A stretch of DNA of 64,000 nt from NCBI RefSeq assembly GCF_020524355.2, contig NZ_CP129019.1, positions 2,976,001-3,040,000 on the forward strand, in the 5' to 3' direction. Both the position numbers and the translations under genes were made by a program. The DNA is from Mesobacillus subterraneus (GTDB lineage Bacteria > Bacillota > Bacilli > Bacillales > Cytobacillaceae). Within the stretch, counting starts at the first letter, position 1. Each line of letters opens with the position of its first letter. Positions 17,711 through 45,825 of the stretch are shown piece after piece. The notes under the pieces are model-generated. The model made no database searches and was not told where the DNA came from. It was given only the letters and a program-made list of their open reading frames with translations.

Positions 17711-17870
17711 ATCCCTGACAAGTAAACTTGGTCCTGAACTTCGGATTTACTCCTATCAATCTTGATATATTCCTGAATCATGGTCACTTATTCCTTAAAA
17801 TCTTAATATATTCCTGACTCTTCGCTGCTTATTCCTTAAAATCCCGATATATTCCTAAATCCCATTTTTT
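17711..17870. repeat. Intergenic repeat tract, ~20.5-bp period (ATTCCT phrase)
   Basis: ATTCCT or a close variant recurs at about 17730, 17749, 17769, 17790, 17810, 17831 and 17851, i.e. spacings of 20, 20, 21, 20, 21 and 20 bases. A 41-bp higher-order repeat is visible (CTTATTCCTTAAAATC at 17787 and 17828). The tract fills the gap between two convergent genes and has no coding potential. Confidence 0.8.
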
Positions 17871-20018: not shown

Positions 20019-20460
20019 TTTAATGGCCGGTTTGTCCTCCTTTATTGGGAGAGCTAGTTTTAAAACCAGTTGGCTGAAATTTAATACTTGTTGAAGCAAT
20101 TTTAATATCAGTTAAGAGGTTTTTTCGAGGTTTGGTGAGTTTGATACGAATTTATCTACATTCATCTCGAATATTTCTGCAGTTGAAAGAGAGTTATTTC
20201 CAGTTGAAACAAATTTATCTCCAGTTGAGAACATTTTATCACCGCTTGGCCCAAATATATATACAGTCGAATCAAATGCTTAGGCTGTTAACGAAGTTTT
20301 TACAAGTTCGTCATTTTTCCCCCTTATTGAAGGGGCTTTAATCACCGTTGGAACAAGTTTAATCCCCGTTGAAGGAGATTTAATCCCTCTTGAGACAAAT
20401 TTAATCCCCGTTGAAGGAGATTTAATCCCTCTTGAGACAAATTTAATCCCCGTTGGAAAC
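20019..20460. repeat. Intergenic repeat tract, 21-bp period (TTTAAT...GTTGAA phrase)
   Basis: The gap 19908-20522 holds no gene. From 20337 the phrase TTTAATC starts exactly every 21 bases (20337, 20358, 20379, 20400, 20421, 20442), including a perfect 42-bp duplication. Earlier, GTTGAA recurs at 20182, 20203 and 20224, and TTTAAT at 20059, 20080 and 20101, all 21 apart. About twenty degenerate units can be traced. Confidence 0.85.
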
Positions 20461-38125: not shown

Positions 38126-38794
38126 TTAATCCCTATATACCTCACTGACGAGACTGGCATGAGGATATCCTTGTGAATCATTGAACCTTGGACCATGAAG
38201 AAGGTATAGTGCTTTTCGTTCGGTTTCTTTCATCCGCTGCATGAATTTGGTGCGCAGCAGGGATGTCCTTAGCAGTTGGTTTTCAAATGAATGATGGGAT
38301 ACTGGCAGAATCATGGATTTCTTATTCCTGAAGGTAACCTGTGTACTGTGGGAGTCCACCTTCTTATGGAATAATACATGCTCATGTGAAACCCATATGC
38401 AGTCCGGTTTTGTAGGCGAGCTTGTAGGCATGAAATATATGGAGCTTATAGGGTCGACAATGATGGGGGTTTTATGGGTGATCCCGGTAAGCTGTTTCGT
38501 TCCTTCCTTTCTGCCTTCGTAGCTGCTTCCAAAATACTTGCAGCTTTTTTTGATAATATCTATTGGTCTGAATGGGGATAAATACTCCTCCTCCAGCTCG
38601 ATCACCCTGGAGTAAACCCTGCTGCCGTATTCTTCAGGAATAATTATCATGGTAAAAGGATTTATTTCGTACTCTTCGACTAAGTTCCTTGTGTTTCCTG
38701 TGTTTCCTGTGTTTCCTGTGTTTCCTGTGTTTCCTGTGTTTCCTGTGTTTCCTGTGTTTCCTGTGTTTCCTGTGTTTCCTGTGTTTCCTGTCAT
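38126..38794 (-). CDS. comK: Competence transcription factor ComK with an N-terminal GNT minisatellite
   Basis: 222 residues. The body is clearly ComK: YFGSSYEGRKEGTKQLTGITHKTPIIVDP, FMPTSSPTKPDCIWVSH, VTFRNKKSMILPVSHHSFENQLLRTSLLRTKF. ComK binds AT-rich K-boxes and switches on DNA-uptake genes. Residues 3-35 are eleven perfect Gly-Asn-Thr repeats, replacing the normal short N-terminus. ATG 38794 has AGGAGG at seven-base spacing, so the repeat is translated. The FMLYP MecA-docking segment of B. subtilis is not conserved (here ALYLLHGPRF). The divergent partner yhzC and AT-rich upstream DNA with A4/T4 runs fit autoregulation, though no exact K-box pair is claimed. Confidence 0.92.
   Translation of the reverse strand: MTGNTGNTGNTGNTGNTGNTGNTGNTGNTGNTGNTRNLVEEYEINPFTMIIIPEEYGSRVYSRVIELEEEYLSPFRPIDIIKKSCKYFGSSYEGRKEGTKQLTGITHKTPIIVDPISSIYFMPTSSPTKPDCIWVSHEHVLFHKKVDSHSTQVTFRNKKSMILPVSHHSFENQLLRTSLLRTKFMQRMKETERKALYLLHGPRFNDSQGYPHASLVSEVYRD
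38690..38791 (-). repeat. 9-bp minisatellite in comK, 11 units
   Basis: Eleven perfect tandem copies of a 9-bp unit (plus strand TTTCCTGTG; coding strand ACAGGAAAC) encode Thr-Gly-Asn. No substitutions are seen between units, implying recent expansion. Because nine is a multiple of three, copy-number change lengthens or shortens the protein without breaking it. Confidence 0.95.
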
Positions 38795-38984
38795 TCCTTC
38801 ACCTCCTATAATACCTTATACCCTATTTTACCATAAGTGTTGAAATTTTCTTTACTTACAGAAAAAGTTTTATTTTTAGCCACAATTTGTGTCCGAATAT
38901 AAATTTTCTAAAAATTATAAAAATTTAGTTGATTATCTTTTCAATAATCCATATAATATAAAAAAGGTCTAAGAGGTGAGGTCA

Positions 38985-40706: not shown

Positions 40707-40810
40707 AGCTTCTCCCCCTTTACGTACAACCATGTCTATAACTATTTTAATCCTTTGTCCTAAAAATAGAACAAGTTATTGAGGGCAGGTGAAAATGCTC
40801 TTCTTACATA

Positions 40811-41486
40811 TTACCGAAATCTTCTGTTCCTCCGCTTCTCGGGCACAAGTTCCCTCAACATGTTACCGAAATCTTCTGTTCCTCCACTTTTCGGGCACAA
40901 GTTCCTCCAACATGTTACCGAAATCTTCTGTTCCTCCGCTTCTCGGGCACAAGTTCCCTCAACATGTTACCGAAATCTTCTGTTCCTCCACTTTTCGGGC
41001 ACAAGTTCCTCCAACATGTTACCGAAATCTTCTGCTCCTCCGCTTCTCGGGCACAAGTTCCCTCAACATGTTACCGAAATCTTCTGTTCCTCCGCTTCTC
41101 GGGCACTTATTCCTCCAACATGTTACCGAAATCTTCTGCTCCTCCGCTTCTCGGGCACAAGTTCCCTCAACATGTTACCGAAATCTTCTGTTCCTCCACT
41201 TTTCGGGCACAAGTTCCTCCAACATGTTACCGAAATCTTCTGCTCCTCCGCTTCTCGGGCACAAGTTCCCTCAACATGTTACCGAAATCTTCTGCTCCTT
41301 CGCTTCTCGGGCACAAGTTCCTCCAACAAGTTACCGAAATCTTCTGCTCCTCCGCTTTTCGGGCACAAGTTCCCTCAACATGTTACCGAAATCTTCTGTT
41401 CCTCCACTTTTCGGGCACAAGTTCCTCCAACATGTTACCGAAATCTTCTGCTCCTCCGCTTCTCGGGCAGATGTTCCTTGTTTGAA
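40811..41486. repeat. 52-bp satellite, 13 tandem units
   Basis: TTACCGAAATCTTCTG begins a unit at 40811, 40863, 40915 and every 52 bases thereafter to 41435, with no indel in thirteen units. Units come in variants (CCGCTTCTCGGGC versus CCACTTTTCGGGC; TTCCCTCAAC versus TTCCTCCAAC) that largely alternate, giving a 104-bp dimer pattern. Because 52 is not divisible by three, long open frames in all three plus frames are artefacts. It fills most of the 907-base gap 40707-41613. Confidence 0.95.
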
Positions 41487-45541: not shown

Positions 45542-45725
45542 GGTCGAAATATTCGTATATGCGGGCGAAATTTTTATAGGCGCGGGAGTATTATTGATTA
45601 TAGTGGTTGAATTATTTTAAACAAGGGGGAGAATCTTTTAAAAATGTGGTTGAATTATTTAAACATGTGGGCGAATTATTGATTATGTGGTTGAAATATT
45701 TAAAAATGCGGGTGAATTATTGATT
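45542..45725. repeat. Intergenic repeat tract, ~21-bp period (GTGGTTGAATTATT phrase)
   Basis: GG(T/G)(T/C)GAA followed by an AT stretch recurs at 45542, 45564, 45585, 45605, 45628, 45648, 45669, 45689 and 45710, mean spacing 21.0. The last four units are the most regular, alternating GTGGTTGAA and GTGGGCGAA types. The gap 45386-45849 otherwise holds the azlCD promoter candidate and a small hairpin (GTTGAG/CTCAAC, 45778-45793). Confidence 0.8.
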
Positions 45726-45825
45726 AAACCATTAATCGCAACGCAAAATTGATAGATAACATGAAATATATGCGGCAGTTGAGGTCCCTCAACTCCGGTG
45801 GAAAAACGAATGGAATTACGCAAAA

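Follow-up and report, generated by a model that had tools for sequence, protein, structure and literature searches.

The window analysed here, a stretch of 64,000 nt from the Mesobacillus subterraneus genome, carries on its minus strand a comK gene that opens with a tandem repeat (Table 1). ComK proteins are characterised by activation of their own gene and of competence genes via K-boxes, and ComK is a textbook case of a bistable switch. The product of the gene in question matches the ComK family profile (PF06338) over residues 40–189 and profile positions 2–152 of 152 (E 2.8e-58; 196.4 bits vs a cut-off of 22.3) and is, by the family-profile criterion, a genuine ComK, as the initial annotation had proposed. 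Adjoining its ATG (38792–38794) are eleven perfect 9-bp copies of ACAGGAAAC that are read in frame as the codons ACA GGA AAC, yielding the N-terminus M-T-(GNT)11-R-N-L-V-E-E-Y-E. TRF reports the array with a period of 9, 11.8 copies, 98% matches and a score of 205 over ~107 bp, and the longest run of bases that equal the base nine positions further on has a length of 93 in the window, whereas none of 100 base shuffles exceeded 11. As an array of tandem near-perfect units within the ~6–100 bp range and inside a reading frame, it is a coding minisatellite. The sequence shows exactly the eleven perfect units that the initial annotation had described, coding, in frame and behind the start that the relatives use; the span it gave, 38690..38791, does contain the array, but at its lower end includes three bases more, the ACA that opens the next, imperfect unit.

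Table 1. Features of the comK locus, in window coordinates
Feature	Position	Strand	Basis
comK, 222 aa, ATG start	38126..38794	-	open reading frame; PF06338; start found in 20 genus relatives
Conserved ComK core, residues 37-222	38126..38686	-	purifying selection; pLDDT
Further imperfect unit ACAAGGAAC, 7/9 like ACAGGAAAC	38684..38692	-	present in close relatives
Eleven perfect ACAGGAAAC units, (GNT)11 tail	38693..38791	-	TRF; sequence; genome-wide unit search
Shine-Dalgarno AGGAGGTG of comK	38800..38807	-	sequence; 16S-tail duplex
Probable extended -10 box, TG (38832-38833) and TAAAAT (38825-38830)	38825..38833	-	TGGTAAAAT, largely conserved in genus, by reading

The array contains no stop codon in any of the six frames and, in the coding direction, no ATG, GTG or TTG. 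An alternative start 3' of the array could be ruled out, as the array is devoid of start codons and the upstream ATG is the start of the relatives: it is common to all 20 of them, with a Shine-Dalgarno sequence that is the same or nearly identical. Frame-shift phase variation, as in an ON/OFF contingency locus, was likewise ruled out, the 9-bp unit keeping the frame. The duplex with the 16S tail is worth -11.5 kcal/mol at the end of the comK leader vs -4.3 kcal/mol for two repeat units. Reading the conserved TGGTAAAAT as a -10 box makes a leader of ~22–30 nt probable. A consensus scan, which demands a full -35 element too, found no minus-strand promoter at comK, and upstream of the gene we detected no exact K-box and four sites with one mismatch, three of which overlap. 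Rfam gave no matches across the window at gathering scores.

We compared the start of comK across 21 genomes of the genus including our own, one genome per species, all of which have a comK orthologue. None of the 20 relatives carries more than one ACAGGAAAC unit. A single exact unit is present in four of them (L010, L011, L012 and L014), the first three reading ATG-ACAGGAAAC-ACAAGG, and the remaining 16 differ in the first codons; in all 20, six codons precede the conserved part of ComK. Between species, each represented by one genome, the number of exact units is therefore 1 or 0 in the 20 relatives vs 11 here, and the comparison of N-termini, a check named in the initial annotation, bears out an expansion relative to the relatives. 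No array was found at 21 further comK loci from named genomes either, some of which overlap with the genus set (L060, matching residues 2–54 only, was left out); among these are Mesobacillus selenatarsenatis, M. boroniphilus and M. subterraneus. Across 193 genomes of the family, a pattern spanning almost three units and allowing two mismatches was present in one, namely our own. Because it is absent from the 20 genus relatives and found in a single family genome, the comK array is lineage-specific.

Among more distant homologues (217 matches among a capped set of 7986 candidates scored, of which the 120 listed were examined), none of the 120 contains a short peptide in three or more copies, in a collection that displays cluster representatives, lacks our own protein as a row and may hide variants. 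The conserved ComK motif begins after 5–11 residues in 98 of these 120 proteins and later in 14, and the pattern was not matched in 8; the first residues of ComK thus appear to vary among homologues. Residues 1–60 used as the query retrieved 62 proteins from 7985 scored candidates, again a capped set with cluster representatives displayed; no expanded ComK is among the 62, the five ComK proteins in it being 190–192 aa long. Within the literature searched, at the level of titles and abstract beginnings, we found no description of a VNTR in comK.

The likely origin of the array can be read from the near relatives, in which the unit and the next nine bases differ at only two of nine positions. 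ATG-ACAGGAAAC-ACAAGGAAC is the probable ancestral start, an imperfect dimer (7 of 9 matching) whose ACAAGGAAC unit is the probable seed of the slippage by which one unit probably grew to eleven. The simplest history places this growth after the split from the relatives at a core dS of 0.10–0.17. If all eleven units already existed at the split, 1.3–2.2 synonymous changes would be expected, and the chance of seeing none is 0.11–0.28. Because the lack of any synonymous change has that chance even at the age of the split, perfect unit identity is weak evidence of present activity, and the earlier argument that it suggests active expansion is a weak one. Copying of the array from another gene of the same genome was ruled out for exact copies: in the single contig of 4,786,507 bases, comK is the sole site with at least two exact adjacent ACAGGAAAC units.

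The repeat background was sampled by running TRF on 464 kb of the same genome, that is 20 stretches of 20 kb and the window. Apart from the comK array, every array in the sample has a period of at least 11 bp and, up to a period of 50 bp, none reaches its copy number. Common periods are 20–21, 40–42 and 52–53 bp, and eight of the ten rows with a period of 52–53 lie outside ATG-started frames of at least 100 codons. The comK array is unlike the usual repeats of this sample.

The 52/53-bp tandem arrays form a dispersed family, with the window copy at 40806–41479. In our genome (G000) they fall at approximately 0.34, 0.37, 0.43, 0.46, 0.74, 0.83, 1.53, 1.56, 2.05, 2.43, 2.68, 2.70, 2.87, 3.02, 3.06, 3.15, 3.30, 3.53, 3.58, 3.69, 3.80, 3.93, 4.06, 4.18, 4.20, 4.23, 4.29, 4.35, 4.47, 4.49 and 4.59 Mb. 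Genome-wide searches with two unit types give, after grouping of the rows, 11 and at least 20 sites, a few of them single-match. With the replichore switch points taken as 2.0 and 4.4 Mb, array orientation agrees with the replichore at 30 of the 31 listed sites, a count that mixes in gene direction; GC skew bounds the second switch point to 4.20–4.42 Mb, an interval with four sites inside. The units vary in sequence with the period kept, and in some of them there is an inverted repeat (the folding z of 20 arrays lies between -5.7 and +1.4). At 9 of the 12 Mesobacillus-type loci examined (L039–L048, L050 and L056, with L049 left out) such an array lies ~2–3 kb upstream of comK, namely at L039, L040, L041, L042, L045, L046, L047, L050 and L056; it is absent in L043 and L048 (the L048 flank is short), and in L044 an array lies downstream instead. 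Judged by eye, most of the upstream units differ from that of the window, and the L046 unit resembles it. Upstream of comK, period and place seem to be kept while the sequence turns over; among the titles returned by our literature search nothing looked similar. Further window arrays of 21, 41 and 42 bp (20176–20458, 45582–45726 and 17758–17861) have counterparts of 20–21 and 40–42 bp that recur in the sampled genome. Periods of 21, 41/42 and 52–53 bp would correspond to about two, four and five helical turns.

Copy-number errors typically arise at perfect short arrays such as this one, and the units could in principle stem from misassembly or from an allele that arose in culture only. We consider this extremely improbable: the ~107-bp array is short enough to fit within single reads, and the genome is one contig. 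Drift in a comK gene that has become dispensable and is being lost from the lineage would agree with an array seen in one lineage only, but is very unlikely on the sequence evidence. The frame is open, the start and the Shine-Dalgarno sequence are intact, and the core has a dN of 0.005–0.014 and a dS of 0.10–0.17 against the five nearest relatives, that is a dN/dS of 0.03–0.09, which points to continued purifying selection and led us to rule out comK as a pseudogene. The genome also encodes two MecA-family proteins and one of the Competence family (PF03772), the latter being weak evidence against decay because 10 of 14 control genomes, that of E. coli among them, have the family too. The same genome encodes another, distant relative of ComK (27% identical) at G000:C1:4777519-4777989 (+), and 20 of the 21 genus genomes, our own included, have a second match.

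At the protein level, AlphaFold2 (60-row alignment) assigns a pLDDT of 46–48 to residues 1–30, 94–98 to each ten-residue block of residues 41–190, and 45–52 to the last 20 residues, after residue 200; the ~30 extra N-terminal residues are thus most likely disordered. A sequence search for a solved ComK structure found none, and its 8 matches (E up to 1) all lie within residues 2–37, the repeat tail. A disordered tail, in a genome with two MecA-family genes, might act on the protein itself by altering MecA/ClpCP-dependent turnover or the assembly of ComK on DNA, and hence the threshold. We regard such an effect as quite improbable: MecA probably binds elsewhere on ComK, and we know of no degron that resembles (GNT)11. 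Furthermore, an N-terminal GFP-ComK fusion is described for B. subtilis as ‘partially active’ and still binds DNA (PMC4482431), which fits a tolerant ComK N-terminus.

At the mRNA level, the array RNA alone folds at 0.0 kcal/mol for every copy number tried, from 1 to 20. Because it does not pair with itself, the repeat RNA is predicted to separate the initiation region from the structured mRNA of the core. For the inferred leaders of 22–30 nt we calculated how much free energy it takes to open bases -15 to +13 (the opening cost). With a 24-nt leader the cost decreases from 7.65 kcal/mol for one unit to 2.61 for eleven, by way of 6.15 (two units), 4.18 (three), 3.90 (four) and 3.4–4.2 (five to nine); the 20 genus relatives range from 4.89 to 10.59 kcal/mol. 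Eleven units cost 2.47 kcal/mol with a 22-nt and 3.01 with a 26-nt leader, and with a 30-nt leader the drop is smaller, from 6.94 (one unit) to 5.13 (eleven). The probability that the Shine-Dalgarno sequence is unpaired hardly moves (0.58 with one unit and 0.59 with eleven, 24-nt leader). The altered mRNA structure around the start that the initial annotation had suggested is therefore recovered as a computed fall in opening cost, but one that is sensitive to the assumed leader length. Folding with 40 nt of upstream sequence (-15.1 kcal/mol with one unit) was set aside, since this stretch probably includes the -10 box and the energy is probably too strong.

We compared the array with 200 control inserts of each of four kinds. 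None of 200 random window pieces and none of 200 base-shuffled inserts reached an opening cost as low as that of the real array, as compared to 7 of 200 inserts in which the same peptide was encoded by random codons, and to 19 of the 200 that repeat one random synonymous unit. A value merely below that of one unit was obtained for 15 window pieces, 172 base-shuffled inserts, 189 random-codon inserts and 161 repeated synonymous units, again out of 200 each. In these calculations most low-structure inserts ease opening, and the comK array does so more than most. As the codons of the array are those of the single unit of the relatives, its low structure is a property of the unit and no proof of selection.

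Could the array be a selected rheostat, kept for frequent changes in copy number that set ComK translation through mRNA opening and ribosome loading, and thereby the share of competent cells? The stepwise fall in opening cost over one to four units and the natural codons, which open better than most same-peptide versions, are in line with such a role, as is what is described in two B. subtilis studies. Cells above a ComK threshold switch on the feedback loop, and basal comK transcripts number at most 1–2 per cell (PMC3297582); the loop amplifies even small effects on the comK mRNA, the levels of ComK control named are transcription, mRNA stability and proteolysis, and a reduced chance of translation is one of four ways of moderating noise (PMC4482431). 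From the threshold, the few basal transcripts and the amplification by the loop, it follows by analogy that changed translation per transcript could shift the share of competent cells. Yet we consider a selected rheostat rather unlikely: the codons were already those of the single unit, the opening cost is nearly flat and non-monotonic over four to nine units (3.90, 4.12, 3.38, 4.19), and the array, of which a single allele was seen, is present in only one of 193 family genomes.

We instead consider it likely that this lineage tolerates an in-frame expansion of a comK minisatellite that has a modest upward effect on translation. Replication slippage would have multiplied the first ACAGGAAAC unit to eleven, and the expansion would be tolerated because the N-terminus of ComK is variable, the frame is kept, and the unit brings in neither a stop in any frame nor, as read in the gene, an ATG, GTG or TTG. 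The product would be a ComK with ~30 extra, probably disordered residues; the non-pairing repeat RNA would hold the initiation region away from the structured core mRNA, ComK translation per transcript would rise modestly, and with this rise the competence switch would become somewhat easier to trip. The tail might instead harm the function or stability of ComK. The array may be actively variable and may tune the switch, as put forward by the initial annotation. The full form of this idea, a heritable and reversible rheostat on the bistable switch in which slippage alters the unit number, translation shifts and the cells of a clone come to differ in their probability of competence, we hold to be unlikely; if true, competence odds would differ between cells of a clone without the frame ever breaking.

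Either way, a natural allele with ten extra units beside one-unit sister species provides a ready allelic series, with which one could ask whether the strength of translation initiation tunes the competent share, and whether a repeat can achieve this in graded steps instead of ON/OFF. Should the array be no more than tolerated, it reveals the extent of N-terminal change that ComK withstands.

The locus shares features with several known systems. With collagen-like GXY proteins such as BclA (PF01391) the tail has in common a Gly at every third residue, and 48 of the 62 proteins matched by residues 1–60 carry a collagen domain; however, the tail is without proline and scores 23 bits vs the cut-off of 27.2, by which we rejected a collagen-like assignment, and two adjacent ACAGGAAAC units occur nowhere else in the genome. 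Bacterial coding minisatellites, or VNTR loci, serve in MLVA typing and are similarly built of short perfect head-to-tail units inside a reading frame, whereas the comK array directly adjoins a master regulator's start codon and is known here from one genome. Phase-variable contingency loci such as lic1 and modA also have tandem repeats within the coding sequence, and modA is likewise a regulatory gene (PMC3899988), but the 9-bp units of comK never shift the frame and would have at most a graded effect. Finally, as compared to ComK proteins at large, the one described here matches the full core profile and starts as in its genus relatives, and differs by the ~30 extra residues of the GNT repeat, found in none of the 20 relatives or of the 120 homologues listed out of 217.
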